DNA of 64,000 bases, from NCBI RefSeq assembly GCF_000423085.1, contig NZ_AUHH01000012.1, positions 1 through 64,000 of the forward strand, written 5' to 3'. This stretch comes from Granulicoccus phenolivorans DSM 17626 = NBRC 107789 = JCM 15570 (lineage in GTDB: Bacteria; Actinomycetota; Actinomycetes; Propionibacteriales; Propionibacteriaceae). The position numbers were made by a program, and so were the translations under genes. The notes under the pieces were generated by a model that searched no databases, had not been told where the DNA came from, and worked only from the letters and a program-made list of their open reading frames with translations. Of the stretch, positions 18,190-41,485 are shown in pieces (the stretch's first letter is position 1; every line of letters begins with the position of its first letter).

Positions 18190-18236
18190 GTCCTCGGGAG
18201 GGATGCTTCGGGTCGGGGGAGCGTCGTCGGGGTCGG

Positions 18237-22309: not shown

Positions 22310-25156
22310 ATGGTGGATTCAGCCGTGACCGAGTCGGCCCTGCAGGTCGCGCCCGGTTCGGTGGTGGTCGTCCGGGACGAGGAATGGCTGGTCACCGGGG
22401 TGGAGAACACCGCCGACGGGGACCTGCTGCGCGTCCAGGGACTCTCCGAACTGGTCCGCGGCACGACCGCCTCGTTCTACGGGTCCCTGGACCGCATCGT
22501 TCCGCTGGATCCGGCGCAGACCCGGCTGGTCGGTGACGATTCCCCCGGCCACCGGCGGTCCCGGCTCTGGCTGGAGGCGACCGTACGCAAGGCCCACCTC
22601 CCCCTGGCCGAAACCGCACTGACCGTCTCCACCGAGGCCCTGGCCGACCCGCTGGCGTACCAGCAATCGGCGGTCCGCACCGCACTCAGCGATCAGAACC
22701 TGCGCCCCCGGATCCTGCTCGCCGACGCGGTCGGCCTGGGCAAAACCCTCGAGATCGGGATGATCCTGTCCGAACTGGTCCGCCGCGGCCGCGGCGAACG
22801 GATCCTGATCGTGTGCCCGCGCCACGTGCTGGAACAGATGCAGCAGGAACTGTGGACCCGGTTCGCGCTCCCGTTCGTCCGGCTCGACTCCGCCGGCGTC
22901 CAACGGGTGAAGCAGAAACTCCCGGCCACCCGCAACCCGTTCACCTACTACAAACGGGTGATCATCTCGATGGACACCCTCAAGCAGGCCCGCTTCGAAC
23001 GCGACCTGCGCCGGCACCGCTGGGACGCGGTGGTGATCGACGAATCCCACAACGTCACCAACGTCGCCGCGCAGAACAACCGGCTCGCCCGCACCCTGGC
23101 ACCGAACACCGACGCGCTCATCCTGGCCTCGGCGACCCCGCACAACGGCCGCAAGGAGTCCTTCAGCGAACTGATCCGCCTGCTCGACCCGACCGCGGTG
23201 AGCCCCGCGGGCGACCTCGACACCGACCGGCTCGAACAACTCGTCGTCCGCCGGCACCGCAACTCCCCGGAGGTCGCCCAGGTGGTCGGCGCCCGCTGGG
23301 CCGAACGCCGCGAACCGAACAACCTGCTGGTCCCGGCCAACCCGGCCGAGAACGACGTGGCCCGGGAACTGGACGAGGTCTGGCTGCACCCGGCCTCCGG
23401 GGCGAGTCCGCACAGCACCGGCAACCACCTGTTCGGCTGGACCCTGGCCAAGGCATTCCTGTCCTCCCCGGCCGCGCTCGCCCAGTCGATCACCGAACGC
23501 TTGCGCCGCCTCGACCCGGCCAACCCGGCCGCACAGCGGGAAGCCCAAGCGCTGCACCGGCTCGCCGAGCTGAACGACGCCACCCGCGCCGACTCCGGCA
23601 AGTACGCCGCCCTGGTCGACGTGCTGCGCGGCATCGACGTGCACACCGAGCGGGCGGTGGTGTTCTCCGAACGCGTCCCGACCCTGCACTGGCTGCAGGA
23701 CCAACTGTGCGCCACCTTCCGACTCAAGCCCGGCCAGGTGGAGATCCTGCACGGCGGCCTGAGCGATGAAGAACAGCAGCGGATCGTGGACTCGTTCAAA
23801 CAGGCCGCCTCCCCGATCCGGATCCTGGTTACCGGCGACGTCGCCTCCGAGGGCGTCAACCTGCACCGGCAGTGCCACGAACTGATCCACTACGACATTC
23901 CCTGGTCGCTGATCCGGCTGGAACAGCGCAACGGCCGCATCGACCGGTACGGCCAGGAGACCCCGCCGCGGATCACCACCCTGCTGCTCGACCCGGACGC
24001 CGACAACTTCGCCGGCGACCTGCGGGTACTCAGCCGGGTGATCGAGAAGGAACACGAGGCCCACCAGGCCCTCGGGGACGCCGCCTGGCTGATGGGCAAG
24101 GAATCGGTCAGCGCCGAGGAGGACGCCATCCGCGACGTCCTCGCCGGACGCCGCGCCGAGGCCGACGTCCTCCCCGAACTCGACGAGATCGAAGGCCGCG
24201 ACCTGATCGCCGACTTCCTCGCCGCCTGGGGCAACCAGCCCGCCCCCGCCGCGACCGTCGAAACCCGCCGGGACTCGCTGTACCCGGCCGACGTGGACTT
24301 CCTTCGCGACGCGGTCACCGAAATCTTCGTCACCCCCGAAGCCGCCCCGACCGCCAACGGGATCGGCTGGCGGGAACACCCCCAGCACGGCACCGTCGAG
24401 TTCGTCCCGCCGGCGGACCTGAAACCCCGGCTGGAGGTGCTGCCGCAGAGCTACCTGGCCGACCGCTTGGTCACCCAGAATCTGGTCCTGGCGACCACCC
24501 GGCAGCGCGGTGAGCAGACCCTGCGCGACGCGCTCAGCGATCAGACCACCTCGAGCTGGCCCGAGGCGCACTACCTCGCGCCGCTGCACCCGGTCCTGGA
24601 ATGGGCCGCCGACCGCAGCCTGGCCAGCCTGGGCCGCGGCCAGATCTTCGCCGTCCGCGGCACCGTGCTGAGCCCGACGCTGCTGCTGCAGGGCCAACTG
24701 ACCAACAAGCGCGGCCAGGTGATCGCCGCCCAGGTCGTCGGGATCGAGTTCCCCCAGCCCGAGGACAATCCCGACTTCCACCTGGTCAACATGTACGCCT
24801 CGGTCCCGGCCGCGCTGGCTGCCCTCGGGTTCGATTCCGCCGCCCGCAACCCCGGCCCGATCGACGGGACCACCCTGCAGCACCTGGTCGCCCGCGCGGT
24901 CGCCGCCGCCGATCAGGAGTTGGCCGCCCAGGTCGCCGGCACCGAACAGGCCACCCGCGACCGGCTGGCCCGGTGGCAGGACCGCACCCGGTCCTGGCAG
25001 GATTCCGCGGACCGGCTGGCCCAGCGCAGCGAGATCAAACAGCGCCGCCTCGGCGTCCGTGACGAGGAGGCCCTGCTGGCCGACCTGGCCCCGGACCGCC
25101 GCCTGGTCCGGCCCCTGCTCATGGTCGTTCCGGGAGGGATCGATGGCAACCAGTGA
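22310..25156 (+). CDS. SNF2-like helicase, DrmD-type
   Basis: 948-residue superfamily 2 ATPase. ADAVGLGKTLE carries Walker A (about 142-146), VVIDESHNV the DESH box (244-247), SATPHNGRKE motif III (about 274), and ASEGVNLHRQ plus EQRNGRIDRYGQ (about 539-549) the C-terminal helicase motifs. The roughly 400-residue C-terminal extension has no domain I recognise. This architecture resembles the DrmD helicase of DISARM class 1, where it precedes an adenine methylase gene as here. The start is ATG 22310 or GTG 22313; GGAGG at 22303-22307 is better spaced for the GTG. It overlaps the methylase gene by 14 bases. Confidence 0.85.
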   Translation: MVDSAVTESALQVAPGSVVVVRDEEWLVTGVENTADGDLLRVQGLSELVRGTTASFYGSLDRIVPLDPAQTRLVGDDSPGHRRSRLWLEATVRKAHLPLAETALTVSTEALADPLAYQQSAVRTALSDQNLRPRILLADAVGLGKTLEIGMILSELVRRGRGERILIVCPRHVLEQMQQELWTRFALPFVRLDSAGVQRVKQKLPATRNPFTYYKRVIISMDTLKQARFERDLRRHRWDAVVIDESHNVTNVAAQNNRLARTLAPNTDALILASATPHNGRKESFSELIRLLDPTAVSPAGDLDTDRLEQLVVRRHRNSPEVAQVVGARWAERREPNNLLVPANPAENDVARELDEVWLHPASGASPHSTGNHLFGWTLAKAFLSSPAALAQSITERLRRLDPANPAAQREAQALHRLAELNDATRADSGKYAALVDVLRGIDVHTERAVVFSERVPTLHWLQDQLCATFRLKPGQVEILHGGLSDEEQQRIVDSFKQAASPIRILVTGDVASEGVNLHRQCHELIHYDIPWSLIRLEQRNGRIDRYGQETPPRITTLLLDPDADNFAGDLRVLSRVIEKEHEAHQALGDAAWLMGKESVSAEEDAIRDVLAGRRAEADVLPELDEIEGRDLIADFLAAWGNQPAPAATVETRRDSLYPADVDFLRDAVTEIFVTPEAAPTANGIGWREHPQHGTVEFVPPADLKPRLEVLPQSYLADRLVTQNLVLATTRQRGEQTLRDALSDQTTSSWPEAHYLAPLHPVLEWAADRSLASLGRGQIFAVRGTVLSPTLLLQGQLTNKRGQVIAAQVVGIEFPQPEDNPDFHLVNMYASVPAALAALGFDSAARNPGPIDGTTLQHLVARAVAAADQELAAQVAGTEQATRDRLARWQDRTRSWQDSADRLAQRSEIKQRRLGVRDEEALLADLAPDRRLVRPLLMVVPGGIDGNQ

Positions 25157-28100
25157 TGCCCTGCGCGTGGTCGAGGACTGGATCAGCGAGCACTACTTCA
25201 CCACCGACGCGCCCAAGGAATCCTTCCACGCCCGGGTGCTGGCCCGCCGCAAGGACTGGGACACCCAGGAGTCCTCGGTCCGCACCCGGTTCGGCGCCGC
25301 CCGGCACCTGCTCGAACTCGAGCTGGCCGAGCTGTACGACGAACACCCCGACCCGGATCTGAACCCTAGGGTGCAGCAGCGCCTGCTGGACATCCTCGGC
25401 TTCACCGCCGGCCCGTGGCAGGTCACCGGCACCGGCACCATCCGCCGGTACGCCTCCCCCGGACTGAGCGGCGCCGACGAACTCGCCGTCGTGCTGGCCC
25501 ACCCGATCGAGGAGATCGACGCTGCCTTCGCCAAGGACGAGCCGACCCTGCCCGAAACGCTGATCGGCCCCGACGGGAGCGACGACCCGAGCAGCGGCGC
25601 GAAGGCGTACACCTCGATCGCGCGCGCGGTCTCGGCCCTGTTCACCGGCGAGGACGCGCCCGCGTACGTGCTCGTGCTGGCCGGCCGCTGGCTGATCATC
25701 GGCGAACAGGGCCGCTGGGCCGAGGGCCGCTGCCTCGGCGTCGACATCCAACTGGTCGCCGAACGCAACGACACCAAGAAGGGCGGTGAGCTCGACACCG
25801 CGCTGACCTGCGTCGAGGCCGCCTCGCTCGCCCCGGACGCCGACGGGAACATCTGGTGGGCCGGCGCGCTGGAGGACTCGGTCAAGCACACCGTCGGAGT
25901 CTCCAAGGACCTGCGCGAAGGGGTGCGGCTGTCCATCGAGGTGATCGCCAACGACGTGATCCAGCGCCGCGCCGCCCAGGGCCTGCCGCCTCTGCCGCCC
26001 GACCGGGCCCAGCCGCTGGCGCTGCAGGCACTGCGCTACCTGTACCGGATCCTGTTCCTGCTGTTCGCCGAGGCCTCCCCGGAACTGCAGGTGCTCCCGG
26101 TCGGCGCCCCCGACTACGACCAGGGCTACTCCCTGGACCGGCTCCGCGAACTCGTCCTGGTCGAACTCACCTCCCCGCAGGCCCGGCAGGGCACCCACTT
26201 CTACGACTCCCTGGACGTACTGTTCACCCGGGTCGACCGCGGCCACCGCCCACCCGACCCTGTCGACGGGGAACCCGACGGACTCACCTTCAACGCCCTG
26301 CGCGCCGACCTGTTCCACCCCCGCGCGATCGCCCACCTGAGCGAGACCCGGCTGTCGAACCAGGCCCTGCAACAGGTGCTGCGGACCCTGCTGCTCAGCC
26401 GGGAACGCCGCGGCGGCGAACGCGGGTTCATCTCCTACGTCGACCTCGGGATCAACCAACTCGGCGCGGTCTATGAGGGCCTGATGTCCTACACCGGCTC
26501 GTTCGCCACCGATGACCTGTACGAGGTCGCGCCAGGCGGGAACCCGGAGAAGGGCTCCTGGGTGCTCCCGGTGGACCGGGCCGCCGACATCGCCGAGAAC
26601 GACTTCGTGCTCACCGAGGACCCCGACACCGGCGAGCAGAAGAAGGTGCTGCACCGCCGCGGCACCTTCGTGTTCCGGCTGTCCGGCCGGGAACGGCAAC
26701 AGTCGGCCTCCTACTACACCCCCGAGGTACTGACCCGGTTCACCGTCTCCCAGGCCCTGGCCGAACTCCTCGACCAGGATGGCCACACCACGACCGCCGC
26801 CGAAATCCTCGGCCTGAGCGTCTGCGAGCCGGCCCTCGGTTCTGGCGCGTTCGCGATCGAGGCGGTACGCCAACTCGCCGAGCAGTACCTGACCCGCCGC
26901 GAGAAGGAACTCGGCCGCCGGGTCGACCCCGACGAACGCCCGCAGGTGCTGCAACGGATCAAGGCCCACATCGCGCTGCACCAGGTGCACGGGGTCGACC
27001 TCAACGCCACCGCGGTCGAACTGGCCGAAATCTCGCTGTGGCTGGACACCATGGCCGCCGGCCTGGACGCGCCCTGGTTCGGGCTGCGGCTCAAGCGCGG
27101 CAACTCCCTGATCGGCGCCAAACACGCGGTCTACACCGACAACGACGTGGCCAAGAGGCACTGGCTGACCACCCCGCCCACCGACGTGCCGCTCAGTCTC
27201 GACGGGGACGGGGAGAGCCTCGGCAGCCGGATCCACCACTTCCTACTGCCCGCCCACGGCTGGGGCGCCACCGCCGACTCCGCCGAGGCGAAGAAGCTCG
27301 CTCCGGAACGGGTCAAAGCGGTCAAGACCTGGGCCCGGTCGCTGCAGAAGGCCCCGACCACGACCCAACGGACCCGGCTCAAGCGGCTGGCCGAACGGGT
27401 CGAGGTGCTCTGGCAGTACGCCGCGCAACGCCTCCGGATCGCCGAACAGCAGACCTCCCGCGACGTCGGCGTCTGGGAGAACCCGCTCCCGACCGGACCC
27501 GAGCGCGGCGAGATCGTCACCCGGGAACAGATCGAGGAATCCCTCGCCGACCCCGACGGCTCCTACCAACGCCTCAAACTCGTGATGGACGCCTGGTGCG
27601 CGCTGTGGTTCTGGGCGCTCACCCTGCCCGCCGAGCCGGACCCGGCGACCGGTGACCCCGGCGAGCCGGTGCAGCCACCGACACTGGACCAATGGCTGGA
27701 CACGCTGGAAGCCATCCTCGGTACCGTCCAGCTGTCCGCCAAGGACCGGCAGTTGGCGCGGCAGGGGCAGACTCCACTCACCGGGCACGACTGGGCCGAC
27801 CTGGGGACCGCCGAACAATGGGACCGGGCTGCCTCCGGCGCCCGACCGACCAGTCGGATCGCGGAAGAGCAGCCCTGGCTCGCGGTCGTCCGGGACGTCG
27901 CGGCGCGGCAGGGCTTCTTCCACTGGGAACTCGAATTTGCGCCGGTCTTCGGCCGCGGTGGCTTCGACCTGCAGGTCGGGAACCCGCCCTGGGTTCGACC
28001 GCGCGGTGACGTCGATGCCCTGCTCGCCGAGTTCGACCCGTGGTGGGCACTGGCGCAGAAACCGAGCGAGCAGCAGCGCCGCGAGCGGCGGGACCGGACG

Positions 28101-29822
28101 CTGCAGTATCCGGGGGCCGCGGAGTTGGTTCTCGACGGTTCTGTCGACACCGTGGCGACAGCCGCTTACGTCGGGAGCCCGGTCTGCTATCCAGTGCTCA
28201 ACGGATTGCAGCCCGATTTCTACCGGTGCTTCATGGCGCAGACGTGGACGCATGCCTCGCGAGTTGGCACGACGGGTTTGATCCACCTCGAATCACATTT
28301 CACCGACGAGAAGGCGGGGCTCCTGCGCCAGGAAACCTATCGTCGACTTCGGCGACACTGGCAGTTCATCAACGAGCTGCAACTCTTCGAAATCCAGCAT
28401 CAGAAGAGCTATGGCGTCAACATCTACGCCCAGCCATGTCAAGGCACGGCTTTTTTGAATGCTTCCGCGCTCTATCACCCCGAGACTGTCGAACGATCCA
28501 GGGGGCATTCAGGGGAAGGCGCGGCCCCCGGGTTCAAGGACGACGACGGTCACTGGGACCTGCGTCCGCATGCCGAGCGGGTGGTAACCGTCACCGACGG
28601 CGTGCTGCAGGTGTGGCGGGACGTTCTGGAGGAATCAACCGTACCTGTCGGGCAGACCCGGATGCTGTATACGGTCAATAGCGAGGTTGCACATGTACTG
28701 GCCACGCTAGCGGCTGCGCCCCGTGTGGGGACGTTAGGACTGCGCTTTTCTCGAGGATGGGACGAATCTATCGACCGGAAGAAGGGTCGATTCGAGCAGC
28801 GTTGGGGGGACCCCGGACGGTGGATTGACGCCATTCTTCAAGGGCCCCACATTTACGGGAACCATCCGATCTACAAGATCCCCAATCCGACGATGAAGAA
28901 CCACTTGGATTGGTCAGCGGTGGATCTGGAGTCTTTGTCACCTACAGCGGTGCCGGTGACGGCGTACAAGCCGGCGGGCGACAAGGCGGTCTATGACGCC
29001 GCCTACACGCACTGGGACGGCGATCCCGCCCGGGATCACTACCGGGTCGCGTGGCGCCGGATGGCAGCCAACACAGGTGAACGGACGTTGATTCCGGCCC
29101 TGATCCCGCCGGGGTCTGCGCATGTGCACCCCGTGACTTCTGCGGGTGTCAGCGCGGTGGGCGATTTGGTGCGACTGCAAGCGATGCTTGGGTCGCTGCT
29201 TGCTGACTTCTCGGTTCGGGCGTCGCCCAAAGGCGATATCCACGGGTCGACCGTGAGTAGGCTCGCAGTACCGGACTTGGAGCACCCCCTTTGGCCTCAG
29301 GCCGCACTGCGCACCCTGCGGCTCAACTGTGTGACGGCCGCGTACGGGGACCTGTGGCGGGAGTGCTGGGACCCGGCGTACATGCAGGACAGCTTCGTGC
29401 TGGGGGACACCACGGTCGACCTGGGTGCGGTCGGGCCGGAGTGGACCCCGGCTACCCCGCTGCGGCGGGCGCTGGATCGGCGGCAGGCGCAGGTGGAGAT
29501 CGACGCACTGGTCGCGCTGATGCTGGGTGTCACCGCCGACGAGCTGTGCACGGTGTACCGGACCCAGTTCGCGGTGCTGCGCGGCTACGACAAGGACACT
29601 TACCTCTACGACGCGAACGGTCGACTGGTGCCGAACGCTGTCCTGGCGCCGTGGCGCAAGCAGGGGGACCGGCTGAGCGTCGAGGACCGGACGCACACCA
29701 ATGCCGCCGGGAACACCTACACCTACGAGCTGCCGTTCCGGTTCCATGACCGGGAGGCCGACCTGCGGACCGCCTACGCGGCGTTCCAGCAACGGCTCGG
29801 GGAGAGCCCGAGCGATGGCTGA
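25143..29822 (+). CDS. Giant N6-adenine DNA methyltransferase (Eco57I/DrmMI-like)
   Basis: 1559-residue protein. SAM motif I is CEPALGSGAFAIEA (about 561-570) and catalytic motif IV is NPPW (947-950), separated by nearly 390 residues as in the long Eco57I-type and DISARM DrmMI enzymes. It presumably marks host DNA so that the neighbouring helicases can tell self from phage. Residues 1-540 and 1000-1560 have no recognised domains; the latter should contain target recognition. GGAGGG precedes the ATG at 25143, which overlaps the helicase gene. Bases about 28140-29330 have visibly lower GC and different codon use than the rest of the gene. Confidence 0.85.
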   Translation: MATSDALRVVEDWISEHYFTTDAPKESFHARVLARRKDWDTQESSVRTRFGAARHLLELELAELYDEHPDPDLNPRVQQRLLDILGFTAGPWQVTGTGTIRRYASPGLSGADELAVVLAHPIEEIDAAFAKDEPTLPETLIGPDGSDDPSSGAKAYTSIARAVSALFTGEDAPAYVLVLAGRWLIIGEQGRWAEGRCLGVDIQLVAERNDTKKGGELDTALTCVEAASLAPDADGNIWWAGALEDSVKHTVGVSKDLREGVRLSIEVIANDVIQRRAAQGLPPLPPDRAQPLALQALRYLYRILFLLFAEASPELQVLPVGAPDYDQGYSLDRLRELVLVELTSPQARQGTHFYDSLDVLFTRVDRGHRPPDPVDGEPDGLTFNALRADLFHPRAIAHLSETRLSNQALQQVLRTLLLSRERRGGERGFISYVDLGINQLGAVYEGLMSYTGSFATDDLYEVAPGGNPEKGSWVLPVDRAADIAENDFVLTEDPDTGEQKKVLHRRGTFVFRLSGRERQQSASYYTPEVLTRFTVSQALAELLDQDGHTTTAAEILGLSVCEPALGSGAFAIEAVRQLAEQYLTRREKELGRRVDPDERPQVLQRIKAHIALHQVHGVDLNATAVELAEISLWLDTMAAGLDAPWFGLRLKRGNSLIGAKHAVYTDNDVAKRHWLTTPPTDVPLSLDGDGESLGSRIHHFLLPAHGWGATADSAEAKKLAPERVKAVKTWARSLQKAPTTTQRTRLKRLAERVEVLWQYAAQRLRIAEQQTSRDVGVWENPLPTGPERGEIVTREQIEESLADPDGSYQRLKLVMDAWCALWFWALTLPAEPDPATGDPGEPVQPPTLDQWLDTLEAILGTVQLSAKDRQLARQGQTPLTGHDWADLGTAEQWDRAASGARPTSRIAEEQPWLAVVRDVAARQGFFHWELEFAPVFGRGGFDLQVGNPPWVRPRGDVDALLAEFDPWWALAQKPSEQQRRERRDRTLQYPGAAELVLDGSVDTVATAAYVGSPVCYPVLNGLQPDFYRCFMAQTWTHASRVGTTGLIHLESHFTDEKAGLLRQETYRRLRRHWQFINELQLFEIQHQKSYGVNIYAQPCQGTAFLNASALYHPETVERSRGHSGEGAAPGFKDDDGHWDLRPHAERVVTVTDGVLQVWRDVLEESTVPVGQTRMLYTVNSEVAHVLATLAAAPRVGTLGLRFSRGWDESIDRKKGRFEQRWGDPGRWIDAILQGPHIYGNHPIYKIPNPTMKNHLDWSAVDLESLSPTAVPVTAYKPAGDKAVYDAAYTHWDGDPARDHYRVAWRRMAANTGERTLIPALIPPGSAHVHPVTSAGVSAVGDLVRLQAMLGSLLADFSVRASPKGDIHGSTVSRLAVPDLEHPLWPQAALRTLRLNCVTAAYGDLWRECWDPAYMQDSFVLGDTTVDLGAVGPEWTPATPLRRALDRRQAQVEIDALVALMLGVTADELCTVYRTQFAVLRGYDKDTYLYDANGRLVPNAVLAPWRKQGDRLSVEDRTHTNAAGNTYTYELPFRFHDREADLRTAYAAFQQRLGESPSDG

Positions 29823-32800
29823 GCTGCTGCCGACCCAGCAGGCGCGGCAGCTCAGCCGGGCCCTGGTCGACTATCTGGCCACCACGTTCGCGCTGACCGA
29901 TCCGGACGCGCAGCGGGCGCTGGAGGAGTTCCTGCACGACGAGGCCGACGGGATCTTCACCGGCCCCTACGTCCGGCTGAAGCTCCCGTTCGCGCACGCG
30001 GCCGACGGCTGGCAGCATGCGCTGGAATGGCTGCCGACCGGGTTCGAGCCCTATGCCCACCAGGCCGCCGCGTTCGCCCGGTTGACCTCCCATCCGGGAC
30101 CGGGGGAGGACCTGCGTACCGGACAGCCCACCCTGGTCACCACCGGCACCGGCTCGGGCAAGACCGAGGCCTTCCTGTATCCGGTCCTCGACCATGTGCT
30201 GCGGGCCCGGCGGCTCGGGCATCCGGGGATCAAGGCGCTGATCCTGTACCCGATGAACGCGCTGGCCAACGACCAGGCCGACCGGATCACCCGGCTGCTC
30301 ACCACCGACCCCCGGCTGCGCGGGGTCACCGCCGCCCTGTACACCGGCGAACAGGGCGCCACCCGCACCCGGGTCTCCGCCGACGGGCTGATCACCGACC
30401 GCAACGTGATCCGGGACACCCCGCCGGACGTGCTGCTGACCAACTACAAGATGCTCGACCAACTGCTGCTGCGCCCGGAGGACCACCGGCTGTGGCAGGC
30501 GAGCGCGGACAGCCTGCGCTACCTGGTGCTCGATGAGTTCCACACCTACGACGGCGCCCAGGGCACCGATGTCGCGATGCTGCTGCGCCGCCTCGGCCTG
30601 GTCCTGGACCGCTACCGCGCCGAACCGACCGCGCCCGGCGGGGCGCCGCTGGGCCCGATCATTCCGGTGGCGACCTCGGCCACCCTCGGTGACGCCGGGG
30701 ACACCGCCGCGATGCGCTCCTTCGCCGAGTCCGTCTTCGGCGTCCCGTTCGTCGCCGACGCGGTGATCACCGAGACCCGGCGCGATCTCACCGAATGGGC
30801 CGACGAGCTCAGCGCGCACGTGCCCGCGGGCACGGTCGGGACAGTGCATCTCGGCGACATGGCCGATGCCGCCGCCGGTCTGGATGCGCTGCGCGATCCG
30901 GCCGCGCTCACCCGGGCCGTGGTCGAGGTGTTCCTGGAACCGGCGCTGGCCGGGGAGACGGCGTACCGGCCGGAGACCGCCGCCGACCTGGCCGGGGTCC
31001 TGCTCGCCGCACCGCAGGTCCGGAACCTGATCGAGACCGCCGGGCCGGCCCGCGACCTGGACGACCTGGTCCGCGCGATGATCCCGCGCCCGGATGCCGG
31101 CGGGGTCGCCGCCCGGTTCGTCGGCCACCTGATCGCCGCGCTCAGCCACCTGCGCGCCGAACTGGGCCGCGGCTTCGTCTCGGTGGAGACGCACCTGTGG
31201 ATCCGCGAGGTGACCCGGATCGACCGGGACGCCTCCGCTGTCCCACGGTACCGCTGGGGCGACGACGGGATCCGCACCGGCGAATCCGGGACCGAGCCGG
31301 CGACCGGCTACCCCGCGCTGTACTGCCGGCATTGCGGCCGCTCCGGCTGGGGCATCGTGCTGGAGCCGACCGGGACCGGCCTGGCCCGCACCGACCTGAA
31401 CATCCGCCGACACCGGGCCGCCGGGGAGAAGTACTTCCGCGCCCTGCTGTACGCCCCCAGCGAGGCCGCCGCGGCGACCGATGCCGGAGCACCGGACCGG
31501 GCGAGCGAGGGACTGCACTGGTGGCACGTCAGCGACCGCCGGCTGGAGAGCGCCCCCCCCGATGAGTTCGACACCAAACTGCAGGAGGGCCAGATCCTGC
31601 CGGTGCTCACCCACACCCGCGCCCAGGAGGATCAGGCCGGCGCCGAAACCTGCCCCTCCTGCGGCGAACGCGACGCCATCCGCTGGCTCGGCTCGGCCAT
31701 CTCGACCCTGCTGTCGGTGACCCTGTCGGCCCTGTTCGGGGACCAGGAGATCGACGCGAGCGAGAAGAAGGCGCTGGTGTTCACCGACTCGGTCCAGGAC
31801 GCCGCCCACCGGGCCGGGTTCGTCCAGGCCCGGTCGCACACGCTGAGTCTGCGCTCCACCATCCACGACGCGCTCAGCGTCCCCGACGGCGCTGAGCCCG
31901 ACGCTGCCGAGCCGGTCGTGTCGTTGGCGGAGCTGCCGGACCGGATGATCGAGCGCGCCGGGGACGACCCGTTCCGGCGCTACCGGCTGCTGCCGCCGAA
32001 CCTGGCCGACGCCCCGAAGTTCGCCGACTACTGGAAGCATCCCGGCCGGCACACCCCCGCGGTGCTCAACCGGGTCCGCACCCGGCTGGCGTTCGACCTC
32101 GCCCTGGAGTTCGGGCTCAACTCCCGCTTCGGCCGCACCCTGGAGAACACCGGCAGCGCGGTCGCCGGGGTCGACGCCGGCCGGCCCGCCGACCTGGTCA
32201 CCGTCGCCCGGGCCGCGCTGGCCACGATGCCGGCGCTGACGGCCGAACCCACCGACCGGGACGTGATCGGCTGGGTCCGCGGCGTCCTGGAACACCTCCG
32301 CAGTCACGGTGCGATCGATCATCGCTGGTTGCACCGCTTCATCGAGTCCGATGGGAATCGGTGGCTGATCTGGGGCGGGCGGAACCGGTCGGCCGGGATG
32401 CCCGCCTTCCCCCGCGGCCGGTCCGCGCCGCAGTTCCCCCGGGTCGGGGCGCCGGTGCACCGCCGGGCCGACATGCTGCTGGAGCCGGTCACCGGCGAGC
32501 AGAGCTGGCACGCCCAATGGGCCGTCCGGGCGCTCGGGGTTCCGGCGTCGGTCGGCGCGGTCGCTGCCCGGCAACTGCTCGCCGAGCTCGCCACCGCCGA
32601 GGTGCTGCTGGCCCGGACCACCGACAGCAACGCCACGGCGTACGCCCTCGACCCGGCCCGGATCCTGGTCCGGGCGACCCCGACCACCCCGGCAGCCGCG
32701 GGGGAGTACCTGCTGCGCTGCGACGTCTGCCACACCCAGCATCCCGGCGACCCGGAAACGGTCTCCCAGTTGGCCGGCCGGCCCTGTATGTACGTGCGCT

Positions 32801-35800
32801 GCCCGGGCCACCTGCACCCCGAACCGATCCGGGACAACTACTACCGCGACCTGTACGCCTCCACCGACATGCGCCGGGTGGTCGCCCGGGAACACACCAG
32901 CCTGCTGCCCGACGAGGTCCGGCTGGAGTACGAGGACCAATTCCGGCGCGCCGAGACCACCCCGGGCGCCCCGAACGTGCTCGTGGCGACCCCGACCCTC
33001 GAACTCGGCATCGACATCGGCGACCTGTCCACCGTCCTGCTCGCCGCGCTGCCGCGGACCGTCGCGTCCTACCTGCAGCGGGTCGGGCGCGCCGGCCGGC
33101 TCACCGGGAACGCGCTCAACCTGGCCTACGTCACCGGCCGCCCGCAGGAACTGCCCCGGCTGCACGACCCCGACCAGCTCCTCAACGGGGCCGTCCGGCC
33201 GCCGGCGATCTGGCTGTCGGCCGAGGAGATCCTGCGTCGGCAGTACCTCGCCGCGCTGATCGACCGGATCGCCGGGGACCCCGGCCGGCGCCACCCGCGT
33301 ACCGCCACCGAGGCGCTGGCCGTCGCCGAACCCGACACCTTTCTTGGGGACCTGATCGCGTACGCCGAAACCCATGCCGCCGAACTGCTGGACGCCTTCC
33401 TGGGCACCTTCGCCGACCTGCAGCCCGACGGTGTCCGGGCCCTGCGCGGCTGGGCGAGTGCGGGGGAGCAGCCCGGCAGCAGCGGCCTGGCCCGTCAAGT
33501 GTACGCCGCCGCGCACGACTGGAACAGCCACGGCGAGGCGCTGGAGTACCGGCGGCAGGCCATCGCGACCGAGCTGCCCGAACTGCAGCGCCGGGCGGAG
33601 GAACCGCACGCCGACGGGGAGTCCGTGGCGGCGTACCAGACCGCCCGGGGCGCGCTGAACTACCTGATCCGCCAGCTCAAGGAGCGCCGCAGCCAGCACT
33701 GGGTCGCGGCCCTGGAGGAGGCCGGGCTGCTGCCCAACTACACCCTGCTCGACGATTCGGTCGCCCTGGATGTCACCCTGACCTGGCGCGATCCGGAGAC
33801 CGACGCCTGGCAGGAGGAACAGACCACCCTGGCCCGCCCCTCGGCCCGGGCGCTGCACGAGTTCGCTCCCGGTGCGCACTTCTACGCCCGGGGGTTCGAG
33901 GTCGAGATCGACTGTGTCGAACTCGGCCCGGACGCCGACGCGATCCGGGAGTGGCGGTTCTGCGCGGAGTGCGGCTGGGCCCGGGAGGAGGCCACCGCCG
34001 ACCCGGACACCCCGTTGACCCACTGTCCCCGGTGTGGCAGCCCCAGTCCGGCCGGGATGGAGCAGCGCCTTCCGGTCGCCGAACTCACCCGGGTTTCCGC
34101 CCGCGCTTCCCGGGAGGAGGCCCGGATCGGGGACCGGGCCGAGGACCGCGTCCGGACCCGCTTCACCGTCGCCGCCGCGGTCGACATCGACCCCGCCCGG
34201 GTCGGCCGGGAATGGTTCGTCGACGGCTACGACTTCGGCGCCCGCTACCTCGACAAACTGACCGTACGCTGGCTCAACCTCGGCAGGACCGGCTCCGGCG
34301 CCACTCTCGATCTGGCCGGCCGGCAGTACAAGGCGCCGCTGTTCCGGATCTGTACCGGCTGCGGCGTCCTCGACCGGGCCGCCGGCACCAACCGGCCCGA
34401 GGAACACCGGCCCTGGTGCCGCTACCGCAAGAACCCCGACGAAGAGCACGTCGCCACCATCGCGCTGTCCCGGACGCTGACCACCCAGGGCGTCCTGCTG
34501 TCCCTGCCGCCCCGGGTCACCTACGGCGACACCTTCGCCATCCCCAGCCTCACCGCGGCGCTGCTGCTCGGGATGCGGGAGACCTACGGCGGCGACCCGG
34601 ACCACCTCGGGGTGCTCACCTGCCCGGCCCCCTCGGCCACCGGGACCCGGGAGGCGCTGCTGCTGCACGACCTGGTGCCCGGCGGGACCGGCTACCTGGC
34701 CGACCTGGCGTCCCCGGATCGGGCCTGGGACCTGCTCTACACCGCCTGGGAACGGGTCCGCGACTGCCCCTGCCGCAACGAGGGCCAACTTGCCTGTCAC
34801 CGCTGCCTGCTCCCGTACGCCGAACCCGGCCAGGCCCAGTTGGTTTCCCGGATGGTCGCCGAACGCCACCTGCGCGCGATCCTGACCGCCGGGAATCCGG
34901 ACGCCGAACCGGACCGGCAGCAGCAATGGGCCACGACGACCCAGCAGCAGGCCTTCGATGTGGACGCCGAATCGCACCTGGAGCAGCGGTTCCGGATCGA
35001 GTTCACCAAGCTGGTCGAATCCCTCGGCCCGACCGACCTGACCGAACTGCCCGGACCCAGCGGCAACCGGATCCGGTTCCGGCTGCCGAACCAGGAGGGG
35101 GCCTGGCTGCTCGAACCCCAGGTGCTGCTCGGCCGGGCCCGGCCCGATTTCGTGCTGTCCCACCCGGACCCGCAGCGCGGGAACGTCGCGATCTTCACCG
35201 ACGGGTACGCCTACCACGCCTCGGTGCAGCACAACCGGCTCGCCGATGACGCCGCCAAACGCTCGGAACTGACCCACCGGGTGCTCGCAGTGACCGCCGA
35301 CGATGTGGCCGCGCAGGCCGCCGGGACCCCGGCGCGGATTCCCGGCTGGTGGAACCCTCGCTTCCGGGAGATGCTGACCCAGCATTTTCCGCACCTGTCC
35401 GGGGCGCTCGCAACCATCCCGCAGGGCCCGTTCGGGTGGCTGCGGCACTGGCTCACCACCCCCGACACCGCCCGCGGGGACGACCTCGCCGATGCCCTCG
35501 CGCTCGGCGTCCTGGCGGCCAATCAGACCACCGCCCCCGGCGGACTCCCCGGCCCCGAGGTGGCCCGCCGCCTGGTCAGCGGCGGCACCGCGCCCGGCCC
35601 GGATCGGGCCGGCTGGTGGTCCCGGCCCGGGGTGGGGATCTTCAGCCGGCCGCTGTCCGGCAGCACGTTCGAAACCTGTGCCATCCTCGACGACCGGCCG
35701 ACGGCGCTGGCCGACCCCGGGGCCAAGGAGGCCTGGCAGGACTGGCTCGCCTGGGCCAATGCGATCGGCTTCGATCCCGGGCATCCGATCACCACGACGC

Positions 35801-36159
35801 AGTTGCTCAGCCGGGCGCCGGTGGCGCCGCCGGTCCCCGCCGCGGTGGCCGTTGGGACGGTTGACCTCGGGGCCTGGGCCGAGGTGCTCGATGAGTATGT
35901 CGACGATCGGACCCGGGCGCTGGTGGTCGATCTGTCCCGGACGCCGGTCCCGGTCGGGGAACTCGGCTACGAGACCGAGGACGAGAACCAGATCGTGGTC
36001 GACCTGGCCTGGCCCGAGGAGCGCGTCGCGGTCGTCATCGACCCCGACTCGGCGGAAATGGATCAGTTGCGGGCGGCCGGCTGGACCGTGGTCGAGCCGA
36101 GCCCCGATGCCATCACCCATGCGCTGGCCGCGGCCGGCTCGAATCCCGGAGGACTGTGA
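29815..36159 (+). CDS. 2114-residue DUF1998 helicase with nuclease-like C-terminus
   Basis: Very large superfamily 2 helicase. Walker A TGTGSGKT is at 110-117, DEFH at 240-243, and the C-terminal helicase motifs (TLELGIDIG, LQRVGRAGR) at about 1060-1095. Between them is a 700-residue insert with two CxxC pairs (504-507, 613-616). The DUF1998 region (HDLVPGGTGYLADL at 1618) ends in the Cys cluster CPCRNEGQLACHRC (1651 on). A segment at about 1690-1850 resembles PD-(D/E)XK nucleases (RPDF with Asp1778, then FTDGYAYH with Asp1796). It could be an equivalent of DISARM DrmA plus DrmB in one chain, or of Druantia DruE. The ATG at 29815 overlaps the methylase stop by eight bases. Confidence 0.83.
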   Translation: MAELLPTQQARQLSRALVDYLATTFALTDPDAQRALEEFLHDEADGIFTGPYVRLKLPFAHAADGWQHALEWLPTGFEPYAHQAAAFARLTSHPGPGEDLRTGQPTLVTTGTGSGKTEAFLYPVLDHVLRARRLGHPGIKALILYPMNALANDQADRITRLLTTDPRLRGVTAALYTGEQGATRTRVSADGLITDRNVIRDTPPDVLLTNYKMLDQLLLRPEDHRLWQASADSLRYLVLDEFHTYDGAQGTDVAMLLRRLGLVLDRYRAEPTAPGGAPLGPIIPVATSATLGDAGDTAAMRSFAESVFGVPFVADAVITETRRDLTEWADELSAHVPAGTVGTVHLGDMADAAAGLDALRDPAALTRAVVEVFLEPALAGETAYRPETAADLAGVLLAAPQVRNLIETAGPARDLDDLVRAMIPRPDAGGVAARFVGHLIAALSHLRAELGRGFVSVETHLWIREVTRIDRDASAVPRYRWGDDGIRTGESGTEPATGYPALYCRHCGRSGWGIVLEPTGTGLARTDLNIRRHRAAGEKYFRALLYAPSEAAAATDAGAPDRASEGLHWWHVSDRRLESAPPDEFDTKLQEGQILPVLTHTRAQEDQAGAETCPSCGERDAIRWLGSAISTLLSVTLSALFGDQEIDASEKKALVFTDSVQDAAHRAGFVQARSHTLSLRSTIHDALSVPDGAEPDAAEPVVSLAELPDRMIERAGDDPFRRYRLLPPNLADAPKFADYWKHPGRHTPAVLNRVRTRLAFDLALEFGLNSRFGRTLENTGSAVAGVDAGRPADLVTVARAALATMPALTAEPTDRDVIGWVRGVLEHLRSHGAIDHRWLHRFIESDGNRWLIWGGRNRSAGMPAFPRGRSAPQFPRVGAPVHRRADMLLEPVTGEQSWHAQWAVRALGVPASVGAVAARQLLAELATAEVLLARTTDSNATAYALDPARILVRATPTTPAAAGEYLLRCDVCHTQHPGDPETVSQLAGRPCMYVRCPGHLHPEPIRDNYYRDLYASTDMRRVVAREHTSLLPDEVRLEYEDQFRRAETTPGAPNVLVATPTLELGIDIGDLSTVLLAALPRTVASYLQRVGRAGRLTGNALNLAYVTGRPQELPRLHDPDQLLNGAVRPPAIWLSAEEILRRQYLAALIDRIAGDPGRRHPRTATEALAVAEPDTFLGDLIAYAETHAAELLDAFLGTFADLQPDGVRALRGWASAGEQPGSSGLARQVYAAAHDWNSHGEALEYRRQAIATELPELQRRAEEPHADGESVAAYQTARGALNYLIRQLKERRSQHWVAALEEAGLLPNYTLLDDSVALDVTLTWRDPETDAWQEEQTTLARPSARALHEFAPGAHFYARGFEVEIDCVELGPDADAIREWRFCAECGWAREEATADPDTPLTHCPRCGSPSPAGMEQRLPVAELTRVSARASREEARIGDRAEDRVRTRFTVAAAVDIDPARVGREWFVDGYDFGARYLDKLTVRWLNLGRTGSGATLDLAGRQYKAPLFRICTGCGVLDRAAGTNRPEEHRPWCRYRKNPDEEHVATIALSRTLTTQGVLLSLPPRVTYGDTFAIPSLTAALLLGMRETYGGDPDHLGVLTCPAPSATGTREALLLHDLVPGGTGYLADLASPDRAWDLLYTAWERVRDCPCRNEGQLACHRCLLPYAEPGQAQLVSRMVAERHLRAILTAGNPDAEPDRQQQWATTTQQQAFDVDAESHLEQRFRIEFTKLVESLGPTDLTELPGPSGNRIRFRLPNQEGAWLLEPQVLLGRARPDFVLSHPDPQRGNVAIFTDGYAYHASVQHNRLADDAAKRSELTHRVLAVTADDVAAQAAGTPARIPGWWNPRFREMLTQHFPHLSGALATIPQGPFGWLRHWLTTPDTARGDDLADALALGVLAANQTTAPGGLPGPEVARRLVSGGTAPGPDRAGWWSRPGVGIFSRPLSGSTFETCAILDDRPTALADPGAKEAWQDWLAWANAIGFDPGHPITTTQLLSRAPVAPPVPAAVAVGTVDLGAWAEVLDEYVDDRTRALVVDLSRTPVPVGELGYETEDENQIVVDLAWPEERVAVVIDPDSAEMDQLRAAGWTVVEPSPDAITHALAAAGSNPGGL

Positions 36160-38372
36160 TGCCGCAGAGCACCCTGATCATGAGTCACGGCGGCCCCGAG
36201 CTGGAACAGGCGATCCGCGCCAAGGCGTACGCGTTCTATCAGAAGCTGACCACCGACGATGCGCTGCCGGGGTTGCACATCGAGCCGATCAAGGGGGCGG
36301 TGGACCCGCGGGTGCGGACCGGGCGGGTCGACGACCAGTACCGGGCGGTGATGTTCCGGTTGGACGACGACGGGCGCCGGGCGTACGTGATCCACGGCAT
36401 CTGGAACCACGACGAAGCCAACCGGATCGCCGAATCGGTCGCCCTGCGAAGGAATCCGCTGAACGGGATCCCCGAGGTACGCCGGGTCGACCACACCCCG
36501 GAACCACCGCTCGCGCCGAGCCGCGCGGCGCAGGAGAAGCGCACCTATCTCGGCCACACCGCCGCCGAACTGGTCACCGGCCTCGGGCTGGACGAGGCGA
36601 CCGCGCTCCGGCTGGCCGACTGCGCGGACGAGGACGCGCTGCTCGCCGCGGCCGCCGACCTCGGTGGGTGGCAGGGCAACGCGGTGATCGAACTGGCGAC
36701 CGGGACCCCGATGGCGGAGGTACGCGAGACGTTCGGGCTCAGCACCCCGGAGCCGGTTGCCGACCACCCGGGCGGGCCTGCGGTGAGCGACCGGGAGCTG
36801 GTCACCCTGATCCGGGAGAACCCGGCGGCCCGGGCGATCTTCAGCTATGTCGAGGGGGAGGACGACCTGCGCCGCGTGATCGAGGCCAAGGACTTCGATG
36901 CCTGGCGGGTCTGGCTGCATCCGCTGCAGCGCCGCCTGGTCGACGCGCACTACAACGGTTCCTACCGGCTGGCCGGCGGGGCGGGGACCGGGAAGACGGT
37001 CGTGCTGGTGCACCGCGCGGTCCGGCTGGCCCGGGACAATCCCGAGGCGCGGATCCTGGCGACCACCTTCACCACCAACCTGGCCCAGGAACTGCGTCGC
37101 CAGGTGGCCACCCTGGACATGCGCGTCGTGGCGGAGCGGTTCGGTGACCCGGGGGTGCTGGTGCAGGGCATCGACTCGCTGGTCAGCACGATCCTGGCCC
37201 GGGCCGACGGGATCGACGAGGACACCGAGCAGCTGTTCGGCTACCGCACCACCGACGTGTCCCGGCGGACCAATGCCGAGGAGGCCTGGCAGGCCGCGAT
37301 CCTCACCGGGGGCCGGGATCTGCCCGACCGGCTGAAGTCACCGGCCTTCCTGGCCGCGGAGTACGCCGCGGTGGTGCTGGCGAACCGGATCACCGAGGTG
37401 CAGCAGTATTTGCGGATCGCCCGGCCGGGCCGCGGGGTGCGGCTGTCCCGCAAGGAGCGGGTGGCGATCTGGCAGGTGGTGCAGGCGTACCGGACGCTGG
37501 CGCGGGCCGACCGGACCCTCGACTACGCCGAGGCGGCGGCCCTGGCCGCGGTGCACCTGGACCGGATCGCCGCCGGCGGGGGAGGGCGGTCGTTCGAGCA
37601 CATCGTGGTCGACGAGGGGCAGGACCTCGGTCCGGGGCATCTGATGTTCCTGCGCGCCCTGGTCGCGACCGGGCCGGATGATGTGTTCCTGGCCGAGGAC
37701 GCCCATCAGCGGATCTATGGGCAGCGGCTGACCCTGTCGAAGTTCGGGTTCGCCGTACGCGGGCGGTCCAGCCGGTTGCGGCTGAACTACCGGACCACCG
37801 CGGAGAACCTGAACCTGGCCCAGCAGGTGCTGGTCGGCGCGGACTGGGTCGACGCCGATGATCAGCCGGAGGATTCCTCGGGGTATCGGTCGGTGCGGCA
37901 CGGTCCGGAGCCGCGGATCGTGCACACCGCGACGCTGGTCGAGGAGTACGACCGGGCCGCGGAGCTGATCGGGGCCTGGATCCGGGAGACCCAGGAGCAG
38001 GGTCGGCCGCTGCAGACGATCGGGATCCTGGTCCGGGATCGGCGACAGCGGGATCTGGTGGTGGCGGCCCTGGCCGAGCGGCGGGTCGGCGTACGCGCGG
38101 TGGACAATCAGGGGATCCCGGACGGGCAGCCGGTGGTGCTGACCATGCATCGGGCGAAGGGGACCGAGTTCGCGAAGGTGCTGCTGATGGGGGTGTCGAA
38201 GCAGAACCTGCCCAAGGTGTACGGGAACCTGCCTGCGGAGGAGCTCGATGATGCGGTGCTGCGGGAGCGGGCGTTGCTGTATGTCGCGGCGAGTCGGGCC
38301 CGGGATGAGTTGGTGGTCAGTTATGCGGGGGAGGCGAGCCCGTTGATGCCGGAGAATCCCCCGGTCGGCTGA
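36159..38372 (+). CDS. UvrD/Rep-type helicase with RelE/ParE-like N-terminus
   Basis: 737-residue protein. Residues about 5-105 resemble RelE/ParE toxins: RVDDQYRAVMFRLDDDGRRA then YVIHGIWNHDEANRIAE. A helical linker (about 125-200) follows, then a superfamily 1 helicase: GGAGTGKTVVL (273-282), VDEGQDLGPGH (484 on), RLNYRTT and TMHRAKGTEF. The ATG overlaps the previous stop (TGATG) with GGAGG well placed upstream, so it is firmly part of the operon. Such helicases act in Gabija and other defence systems, but the toxin-like fusion is uncommon to my knowledge. Whether the RelE fold still binds ribosomes is unknown. Confidence 0.83.
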   Translation: MPQSTLIMSHGGPELEQAIRAKAYAFYQKLTTDDALPGLHIEPIKGAVDPRVRTGRVDDQYRAVMFRLDDDGRRAYVIHGIWNHDEANRIAESVALRRNPLNGIPEVRRVDHTPEPPLAPSRAAQEKRTYLGHTAAELVTGLGLDEATALRLADCADEDALLAAAADLGGWQGNAVIELATGTPMAEVRETFGLSTPEPVADHPGGPAVSDRELVTLIRENPAARAIFSYVEGEDDLRRVIEAKDFDAWRVWLHPLQRRLVDAHYNGSYRLAGGAGTGKTVVLVHRAVRLARDNPEARILATTFTTNLAQELRRQVATLDMRVVAERFGDPGVLVQGIDSLVSTILARADGIDEDTEQLFGYRTTDVSRRTNAEEAWQAAILTGGRDLPDRLKSPAFLAAEYAAVVLANRITEVQQYLRIARPGRGVRLSRKERVAIWQVVQAYRTLARADRTLDYAEAAALAAVHLDRIAAGGGGRSFEHIVVDEGQDLGPGHLMFLRALVATGPDDVFLAEDAHQRIYGQRLTLSKFGFAVRGRSSRLRLNYRTTAENLNLAQQVLVGADWVDADDQPEDSSGYRSVRHGPEPRIVHTATLVEEYDRAAELIGAWIRETQEQGRPLQTIGILVRDRRQRDLVVAALAERRVGVRAVDNQGIPDGQPVVLTMHRAKGTEFAKVLLMGVSKQNLPKVYGNLPAEELDDAVLRERALLYVAASRARDELVVSYAGEASPLMPENPPVG

Positions 38373-38859: not shown

Positions 38860-39942
38860 ATGGTCTGGAGTGCCGGGACTCCCTTCAATGACCTTCCGCC
38901 GCTGCCGCCGCGGGGGCTCGATCTTGAGCCCAAGGTCGTCCTCAAGGCCACGGTGGAAGCCCGGACTGCCCTGGCGACGCTGGCCCAGGCCGGGCAGTTG
39001 CTGCCCAACCCGAACGTCCTGATCCATGCGGTGCCGATTCTGGAGGCGCAGGCCAGTTCGGAGATCGAGAACATCGTGACCACCGCCGACGAGCTCTTCA
39101 AGCACGTCGACACCGGGGAAGGTGACCACGCCACGAAAGAAGCCCTGCGTTATCGCAGCGCGCTCTTCGCGGGCGTCGAGTCCATCAGAAGCCGACCTCT
39201 CACGGCCAGGACCGCGGCTGCCATCTGCTCCGAGTTGCAGGGACGCGAGATGGATGTCCGTGCAGTCCCCGGCACGAGGATCGCGAATCCGACAACGCGC
39301 GAGGTCGTCTACGCACCTCCGGAAGGTGCAGGTCTCATCCGGGAGAAACTCGCGGACTGGGAACGCTTCGTGCACGCGCAGGACGACTTGGATCCGCTGG
39401 TGCGGATGTCAGTGGCGCACTACCAATTCGAGGCGATTCACCCGTTCCATGACGGCAACGGCCGCACCGGTCGGGTCATCAATATCTTGATGTTGATCGA
39501 GGCCGGCCTGCTCCACGACCCGATCCTGTACCTGTCTCGTGGAATTATCGCCCGCAAGAACGACTACTACCGACTCCTGCGCGCAGTCACTGCCGAGGTT
39601 GCCTGGATCGAGTGGATCCTATACATGCTCGAGGTCGTCGAGGAGTCCGCTTCCTCGACGACGCGGAAGATCGGAGCGATCAAGGCGTGTCAGGACGACA
39701 TTGCGGAACGAGCCCGCGTCGCCACGCCCGGCGGCCGCGACGCCCAATTCCTCAATGTGCTGTTCGAGCAGCCATATTGCCGAATCGGCACTGTCGTCGA
39801 GCGATGCGAGGTGTCTCGGCAGACGGCGTCGTCGTGGCTCCATGCGCTGGTGGAGGCGGGACTTCTCCGCGAGGTCAAGATCGGCCGAGAGTTGCTGTTC
39901 GTCAACCACGAGTTCCTTGAGGTGCTCGCCCGCTCGGAATAG
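38860..39942 (+). CDS. Fic-domain AMPylase with winged-helix tail
   Basis: 360-residue Fic/DOC protein that probably transfers AMP to a protein target. The active-site loop HPFHDGNGRTGR begins at His194 and is intact. The N-terminal Fic_N helix carries the inhibitory motif S-x3-E-N (Ser66 to Asn71 in SSEIEN), so the enzyme is self-inhibited (class II). Residues about 275-350 form a winged helix (VVERCEVSRQTASSWLHALVEAGLL). AAAGAGA lies before the ATG. Its composition is less GC-rich than the housekeeping genes. The 17-base inverted repeat just upstream suggests autoregulation. Confidence 0.9.
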   Translation: MVWSAGTPFNDLPPLPPRGLDLEPKVVLKATVEARTALATLAQAGQLLPNPNVLIHAVPILEAQASSEIENIVTTADELFKHVDTGEGDHATKEALRYRSALFAGVESIRSRPLTARTAAAICSELQGREMDVRAVPGTRIANPTTREVVYAPPEGAGLIREKLADWERFVHAQDDLDPLVRMSVAHYQFEAIHPFHDGNGRTGRVINILMLIEAGLLHDPILYLSRGIIARKNDYYRLLRAVTAEVAWIEWILYMLEVVEESASSTTRKIGAIKACQDDIAERARVATPGGRDAQFLNVLFEQPYCRIGTVVERCEVSRQTASSWLHALVEAGLLREVKIGRELLFVNHEFLEVLARSE

Positions 39943-41241: not shown

Positions 41242-41409
41242 GCGGAGCGAGCGGTCCGCGACCGCTCGTGACAGGCAGGCGACATTCGTTGCGCCACAGG
41301 CCACTTTCTGGGCCCCTTTCACGATCTGACGTCACCTTCCTGTCAGCGTCGCGGGGGAGCCGGGCTGGCGTACTGGCTCATCCGGCTGTTCTGACCCCGC
41401 GACCCCCCT

Positions 41410-41485
41410 GGTCATCCAGCGTCACCCTGGTCATCCAGCGTCACCCCGGTCATCCAGCGTCACCCCGGTCATCTAGCGTCACCCC
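41410..41485. repeat. 19-bp tandem repeat, four copies
   Basis: GGTCATCCAGCGTCACCCC repeated at 41410, 41429, 41448 and 41467 with only one or two differences, followed by a decayed fifth unit. The same GGTCATCCAGCGTCA occurs once per unit in the array at 18330-19500. Confidence 0.9.

Follow-up and report, generated by a model that had tools for sequence, protein, structure and literature searches.

We analyzed a 64,000-nucleotide stretch of the genome of Granulicoccus phenolivorans DSM 17626 (contig NZ_AUHH01000012.1, positions 1 to 64,000; hereafter the window), in which four overlapping open reading frames (ORFs) lie on the plus strand at 22310-38372. Our results indicate that this operon is a new actinobacterial member of a known system, ARMADA type II. 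As a whole, the evidence is best explained by an ARMADA type II antiphage system that sits in an accessory segment of about 21 kb and acts through the mechanism proposed below, a reading in which we have high confidence. A preliminary description of the same DNA had recognized a defense operon related to DISARM and Druantia, in which a single chain combines the parts that DISARM divides between DrmA and DrmB, and both points stand. It had also found no named type to which the set could be matched. That part has to be given up, since the operon agrees with ARMADA type II in its genes, in their order and in having a RelE-UvrD fusion (PMC12458937). With the claim of a new defense type removed, ARMADA type II, which has been tested in E. 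coli alone in the literature covered, gains an actinobacterial member that keeps all eight of the residues tested there.

ARMADA type II (ArmA-B-C-D) was defined by Bell et al. (bioRxiv 15 Sept 2025, PMC12458937) as a set of BrxHII-like, PglX-like, YprA-like and RelE-GajB/UvrD genes in strict order. The E. coli system protected against 13 of 80 phages, deletion of any one of the four genes abolished protection, most residues tested in the motors and the methylase proved necessary, and there was no sign of abortive infection (PMC12458937). The strains in that study include NCTC 12900 and ATCC 8739, and the latter was deleted and tested there. ARMADA is also mentioned among other systems in later papers (PMC13192584, PMC12904381).

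The window operon is identical to this definition in gene set and order (Table 1). Its overlaps are confirmed at 14 nt (A/B), 8 nt (B/C) and 1 nt (C/D, as TGATG), and the Pfam domains agree with the earlier assignment of a SNF2-like helicase, an N6-adenine methylase, a DUF1998 helicase and a UvrD-type helicase. Specifically, ArmC carries DEAD, Helicase_C and MZB (DUF1998) domains, and ArmD carries UvrD-helicase (N) and UvrD_C. For armA and armD, the in-frame GTG codons at 22313 and 36156, from which our search queries began, are as good as the ATG starts at 22310 and 36159.

Table 1. Positions in the window of the operon, its domains and a nearby candidate defense gene
Feature	Position	Strand	Description and basis
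armA	22310..25156	+	948 aa, SNF2/RapA-like (BrxHII-like) helicase; Pfam SNF2-rel_dom, Helicase_C
armB	25143..29822	+	1559 aa, PglX-like N6-adenine DNA methyltransferase; Pfam Eco57I
NPPW catalytic motif of ArmB	27981..27992	+	aligned to E. coli N971
armC	29815..36159	+	2114 aa, YprA-family DEAD helicase, MZB/DUF1998, C-terminal nuclease-like domains
MZB (DUF1998) zinc-binding domain of ArmC	34552..34809	+	aa 1580-1665; Pfam PF09369, 43.4 bits
First nuclease-like domain of ArmC (weak assignment)	34969..35472	+	aa 1719-1886; AlphaFold2 model m1eeb8148d540
Second, Vsr-like domain of ArmC	35896..36141	+	aa 2028-2109; structural rows of model
armD	36159..38372	+	737 aa, RelE-like domain fused to UvrD/GajB-like helicase
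RelE-fold domain of ArmD	36162..36425	+	model m9328d9b43abf, pLDDT 87.7
SoFic-type Fic gene (candidate defense gene outside ARMADA)	38860..39942	+	PADLOC SoFic, Pfam

In pairwise comparison, each window protein was most similar to its own counterpart in E. coli ATCC 8739, with matches over most of the length. ArmA scored 439 bits (residues 13-813), ArmB 679, ArmC 625 (residues 4-1819) and ArmD 270; against DruE of the same strain, ArmC scored 124 bits. Aligned globally, the window proteins and their counterparts were 32-35% identical. Furthermore, all eight catalytic residues mutated in PMC12458937, namely, Walker A and B of ArmA, ArmC and ArmD together with the SAM motif and NPPW of ArmB, are conserved. 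They are K144 and D243 in ArmA (numbered from GTG 22313), G566 and N947 in ArmB, K116 and D240 in ArmC, and K280 and D486 in ArmD (numbered from GTG 36156). The published numbering is that of NCTC 12900, and ATCC 8739 has the same letters at the same numbers. The ArmB asparagine aligns with N971 of E. coli, the mutation of which abolishes defense (PMC12458937). Finally, a quick tree of 20 rows grouped the window ArmC with that of E. coli in a clade of 16 rows (100% SH-aLRT [Shimodaira-Hasegawa-like approximate likelihood ratio test]) that also holds proteins from Actinobacteria, Alphaproteobacteria and Cyanobacteria. Outside this clade were two DruE proteins (from ATCC 8739 and from a Pseudomonas plasmid gene adjoining an STY4851-family gene) and two type-I-like helicases (from the Mesorhizobium and Thermus loci discussed below).

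Gene neighborhoods of homologs, a check proposed in the preliminary description, bore out the linkage. We found 402 relatives of ArmB in genome contigs and based locus counts on the 80 that best matched the window protein, which are therefore not a random sample; the names of these loci are actinobacterial throughout, presumably, as far as we recognized them. An ArmA homolog lies upstream of ArmB in 78 of the 80, the remaining two being contigs of 3.1 and 4.2 kb, so the arrangement is not due to chance. The same survey turned up the defense-like cargo described below. Among E. coli genomes, a DNA search found an ArmC match in 518 of 5,426. The order at the ATCC 8739 locus is ZorB2/ZorA2, an STY4851-family gene with a large helicase, ArmA-D, three features, an integrase and tRNA-Phe. 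Following the Figure 4 legend of PMC12458937, we took the STY4851-family gene and helicase for Druantia III. Thus, the E. coli system neighbors Zorya II and Druantia III, whereas the operon in the actinobacterial host neighbors a SoFic gene.

Predicted domains of ArmC and ArmD and a proposed mechanism

In ARMADA type II, the C-terminal part of the YprA helicase is described as a Vsr-type nuclease with predicted activity, behind which inactive EEP and Vsr domains are often found (PMC12458937). The preliminary description had suggested structure prediction of the 2114-aa protein, and the AlphaFold2 model of its tail (residues 1700-2114; predicted local distance difference test [pLDDT] score of 86.7) yielded a Vsr-like last domain and a weaker first one. 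With VIA-align, the last domain matched 3hrl (Z 8.5; root mean square deviation [rmsd] 2.4), I-Bth0305I (Z 7.8) and Vsr (1cw0, Z 6.0). The first is weakly PD-(D/E)XK-like, with BsoBI at Z 6.6 (rmsd 3.3, 118 aa) and Vsr 1vsr at Z 4.1; in the 24-row alignment A3, its residues D79, D97, G98, H102, D113 and R117 are invariant. No EEP-type nuclease appeared among the VIA-align rows for the tail, which is no proof of absence. Sequence searches for a nuclease there gave nothing usable, the best hit (E 0.0038) being a protein named RBL4. As modeled, the tail would be compatible with the scheme of an active Vsr followed by inactive domains, under which the second, Vsr-like domain would be inactive (PMC12458937). 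An antisense open frame of 2196 aa overlaps armC on the minus strand (29530-36120). It is most likely a high-GC artifact, because domain and homolog matches fall in the plus frame.

The N-terminus of ArmD is predicted to adopt a RelE fold. An AlphaFold2 model of residues 1-121, built on a 20-row alignment, had YoeB and YafQ as its best rows in Foldseek (best E 0.0015). Likewise, nearly all VIA-align rows belonged to the RelE/YoeB/YafQ/HigB superfamily, with YoeB the best (Z 9.0, rmsd 2.9, 82 aa). Pfam detected this domain in 0 of 24 ArmD sequences, and other sequence searches also gave nothing usable. The description of ArmD as a RelE-UvrD fusion, already made in the preliminary description, is thus supported by structure prediction. 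The accompanying idea that this protein takes the place of the DISARM nuclease DrmC probably does not hold, because the likely counterpart of DrmC is the set of Vsr/PD-(D/E)XK-like domains at the ArmC C-terminus, as suggested by PMC12458937 and by fold evidence that is clear for the last ArmC domain and weak for the first. Additional ArmD-like sequences occur in two related loci (labeled here by L numbers). Locus L018 has a second copy upstream of armA (4680-6935) in addition to its regular copy at 21070, and L056 has a second, partial match downstream of armD (23401-24498).

By analogy with BREX, DISARM and Druantia, self-marking by methylation, cutting by ArmC and an RNase role for RelE are the most likely elements of a mechanism. 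In this scheme, ArmB would methylate host DNA at a sequence motif. The motors ArmA and ArmC would be loaded onto phage DNA, incoming or under replication, that is unmarked or of unusual structure, and ArmC would then translocate along or unwind that DNA and cut it with its C-terminal PD-(D/E)XK/Vsr-type domain. ArmD may act as a further motor, possibly with an RNA-cutting back-up function.

An argument can be made against parts of this interpretation. Identity to the tested E. coli system is just 30-35%, the 20-row ArmC tree came with warnings about long branches and letter make-up, and the protection reported in the text of PMC12458937 covered is that of the E. coli system. Self-marking by ArmB is argued from related systems. 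Furthermore, the SAM-motif mutant G605A of E. coli ArmB lost activity partly, not wholly (PMC12458937), and the fit with a simple model of self-methylation is therefore imperfect. The nonabortive outcome sits uneasily with a RelE domain of toxin type. As for the nuclease, Foldseek returned no match with E below 0.2 for the 415-residue ArmC tail, and frataxin rows, presumably unrelated, reached Z 6.1 on its first nuclease-like domain.

Alternative explanations and related systems

One alternative is that ArmB works alone as a type IIG restriction-modification enzyme, to which the three helicases are accessory or bear no relation. The best PADLOC match of ArmB is indeed labeled REase_MTase_IIG (PDLC03611, 1454 bits, residues 1-1554). 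At the sequence level, however, the first 200 residues contain no invariant D, E or K across 31 sequences (L85, P173 and L198 are invariant, and nothing else), which argues against taking the label literally; our guess is that it was inherited from automatic annotation. A stand-alone enzyme would also leave the regular occurrence of an ArmA homolog upstream of ArmB unaccounted for, and in the E. coli system none of the genes is dispensable (PMC12458937). We regard this alternative as very improbable.

A second alternative, to which we give equally little credence, is that the operon serves mainly host DNA repair or fork processing rather than phage defense. The UvrD family includes repair enzymes, and so do the YprA/MrfA helicases (PMC12458937). 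Yet its presence is patchy. At E <= 1e-50, relatives of ArmB occurred in 8 of 396 genomes sampled from the phylum and in 5 of 57 relatives, the host's own genome being counted in both, and the operon is therefore accessory. Moreover, 31 plasmid records carry an ArmB relative at E <= 1e-30. The defense-like cargo of related loci and the placement of ArmC beside a tested defense helicase in the tree also speak against a repair role.

Least probable of all is a new defense type between DISARM and Druantia, as the preliminary description had it. Profile searches did recover the resemblances behind this view, with ArmA matching the DrmD model NCBIfam NF038317 at 337 bits and ArmC matching DruE at 277 bits in PADLOC. 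The sense of relatedness was a good intuition, but the intermediate position does not hold, as the DrmD score is under the NCBIfam cut-off of 610 and ArmC falls outside the DruE rows of the tree. More decisively, the set of four genes agrees, order included, with ARMADA type II and with the tested E. coli system. A full match to one defined type was the finding that the preliminary description had itself set against novelty, and its claim is rejected on that ground. Gabija is dismissed as well, for ArmD alone matches GajB, weakly (at most 90.9 bits among the PADLOC matches listed), and no TOPRIM domain, the mark of the partner GajA, is among the Pfam matches of the four proteins.

Comparison with individual systems places the operon more precisely. 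With ARMADA type II it shares the four genes, their order, the domain make-up and the catalytic residues, together with the RelE-UvrD architecture of ArmD and, probably, the nuclease-like C-terminus of ArmC. YprA, BrxHII-like and PglX-like proteins are common to ARMADA types I and II, but in type I the helicase gene is usually the leading one, and the description of the RelE-UvrD gene refers to type II (PMC12458937). Such a helicase-first order occurs in the Mesorhizobium plasmid locus L113, outside the clade of the window ArmC. In relation to DISARM class 1, the SNF2 helicase and adenine methylase are related to DrmD and DrmMI, but there are no separate drmA and drmB genes, the helicase and MZB domain being in one chain according to Pfam, which also found no PLD domain (that of the DrmC nuclease) in the four proteins. 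Druantia type III has in common the large YprA-type helicase (DruE), although ArmC branches apart from the two DruE rows; neither DruH nor another Druantia partner was among the PADLOC matches listed for the other three genes and six neighbors.

Two plasmid loci have unusual arrangements. In a Thermus plasmid (L112, 2607-18979), an ARMADA-like set includes an ArmD-like protein (177 bits) and a large helicase outside the ARMADA type II clade. An NYN gene separates the first helicase gene from that of the methylase, and two genes on the minus strand precede the large helicase; this set is a possible intermediate. In a Tsukamurella plasmid (L085, 1-22173), a helicase-related gene and a DUF1998 gene lie directly upstream of ARMADA type II, armC is annotated as two genes, and a second UvrD gene follows downstream.

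Genes between armB and armC in related loci

Our comparison of loci had a by-product that looks new. Extra DNA of more than 300 nt, 0.7 to 9.7 kb in length, separates armB from armC in 27 of 63 measurable loci. At the A-B joint this is true of 1 of 78 loci, and at the C-D joint of none of 46 (L056 counts as empty, since ArmD directly follows ArmC there and a second ArmD-like match lies further on); these counts extrapolate from alignments. Ignoring kinship, the B-C joint differs from A-B (Fisher p = 1.4e-10) and from C-D (p = 3e-8). In a stricter count of complete ORFs only, extra DNA was present at B-C in 11 of 46 loci, a lower figure because long inserts drop out once ArmC is cut off. The corresponding counts were 2 of 70 at A-B (L002, with a gene between, and L026, with a frameshifted armA) and 0 of 38 at C-D, where L018 is counted at its extra upstream ArmD copy. 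The difference persisted (p = 6e-4 against A-B; p = 9e-4 against C-D in 37 loci, with L018 left out). The frame break in armA of L026 is at 9349-9351, and in contig G444:C106 (L092, L093) armB is interrupted by an in-frame TGA and resumes in a different frame; these are possibly broken copies or assembly errors.

Some inserts may be longer still. ArmC was not seen in 17 of the 80 loci, nine of which had less than 8.5 kb after ArmB and eight the full 10 kb. In seven of these eight, inspection of contig coordinates by hand located ArmC 10.4-29.6 kb further on the same strand, on the assumption that the numbered contig is that of the locus, and L059 was the one that gave no clear position; these seven are not part of the 27 of 63. 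On a tree of 71 ArmB proteins that includes the window's, with 34 loci labeled as inserted (the distant seven among them), the inserted state calls for no fewer than 8 changes and groups by clade. Examples of extra DNA between armB and armC, taken from loci spanning L002 to L079, are L006:14749-18424, L041:14650-16485 and L070:14632-16485.

The inserted genes tend to have the orientation of the operon. Where an ORF of at least 150 aa was called, the first gene runs in the direction of the operon in 22 of 25 loci and is opposed in the other three; in the remaining 2 of the 27 inserted loci, no ORF of that length was called. In three loci, the first cargo gene overlaps the armB stop by 4 nt. Genes were called with a home-made GC-frame script, which misses some genes and mis-starts others. 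We scanned 29 cargo proteins with Pfam (26 of the 57 listed, one more, and two from plasmids), 24 of them from the 27 inserted loci. A family above the cut-off was found for 19 and none for 10. Commonest were six GmrSD enzymes, from five of the 27 loci and from L028, and of 37 cargo proteins compared with PADLOC, 6 hit type IV/GmrSD models. The other families were four OLD/AbiEii-type ATPases, AIPR, CTD7 and DUF3732 (both of ABC-3C type), TerD, two other helicases, a 5'-nucleotidase, MauJ and a MoxR ATPase. Our impression is that much of the Nocardia inserts consists of ordinary chromosomal genes and not of defense cargo.

Copies from outside the actinobacteria point the same way in two of the nine that we looked at. 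Two related alphaproteobacterial plasmids, L098 and L099, have flanks that are 88 and 97% identical and differ exactly at the armB-armC joint, where L099 holds a single 849-nt gene (18011-18859) and L098 is empty (18011-18013). The product is weakly peptidase-M78/IrrE-like, below the Pfam cut-off. At the same joint, a MoxR-like gene of 558 nt is present in a Nostoc plasmid. There is no gene there in ATCC 8739, E. coli PD7, Gemmobacter, Aulosira, Microvirga, Pseudanabaena or Martelella, and the window's own operon likewise has no cargo at this position.

A family of about 230-250 aa recurs directly after armB and shares the stretch YLWM.IG.D.LIKPDRMVLRW. It precedes armC at L037:14603-15352, L046:8097-8804, L062:6209-6892 and L073:14523-15227, and it is also present at L054:5789-6502, where the contig ends. 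The two members scanned had no Pfam match above the cut-off. The family may resemble helix-hairpin-helix glycosylases.

A comparable arrangement has been described for BREX, a different core system, in which defense genes, GmrSD included, are likewise slotted into the core operon beside the PglX-type methylase gene. There, brxU, encoding a GmrSD enzyme, lies between brxC and pglX (PMC8565348), two genes lie between pglX and pglZ in Salmonella (PMC9009780), and effectors are embedded in core loci (PMC12839542); in ARMADA type II the favored joint is armB-armC. We found no mention of cargo in ARMADA operons in the literature searched, including the text of PMC12458937 covered. Taken together, the locus comparisons suggest that other defense genes have repeatedly been slotted into the armB-armC joint. 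It seems to us an even call whether ARMADA type II is a chassis, with this joint as the preferred docking site in Actinomycetota, Alphaproteobacteria and Cyanobacteria for swappable defense genes in operon register placed after the methylase gene (mostly GmrSD enzymes, whose target is modified DNA, also AIPR, OLD/AbiEii-like ATPases and ABC-3C). The core would attack unmarked DNA, and the cargo would cover phages that evade it by DNA modification. This predicts that genes between armB and armC are exchangeable accessory immunity, and the joint would therefore be a search window for uncharacterized defense genes.

Genomic setting

The operon occupies part of the segment of about 21 kb between two housekeeping genes, one for an amidohydrolase (ending at 22119) and one for ribosomal protein S16 (frame 43376-43984). 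In 5 of 11 loci from relatives (L101, L107, L108, L110 and L111), ffh, the amidohydrolase gene and rpsP lie within about 1.1 kb; the short stretches fetched for the other six contained no rpsP. This proximity implies that the 21 kb was gained in the lineage of the window (or lost in those relatives). We found no integrase among the ten neighbor genes scanned, no tRNA in the window nearer than 61899-61986 and no sigma-70-like promoter. Of 55 direct-repeat families, the 20 largest include no flanking repeat that resembles an att site, and terminator-like sites were not in excess. A scan of viral contigs found no ArmC relatives, and phage records held no ArmB relative at E <= 1e-20.

Apart from ARMADA type II, the segment contains a CopG-type gene, a SoFic-type Fic gene, a helix-turn-helix (HTH) protein, a small protein with no Pfam match and a pyridine-nucleotide disulfide oxidoreductase gene on the minus strand (41910-43343). 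The Fic protein matches the PADLOC SoFic profile over its full length (361 bits, positions 7-360 of 361) and has the Pfam domains Fic_N, Fic and SoFic-like_C. Its position directly downstream of the operon makes the region a small defense island. In a search of the 80 loci and L084-L099 for Fic as a recurrent neighbor, six loci matched, weakly, and we therefore claim no general link between Fic and ARMADA. Finally, two short tandem arrays with units of 19 and 30 nt lie at 41406-41905, 3' of the oxidoreductase gene.

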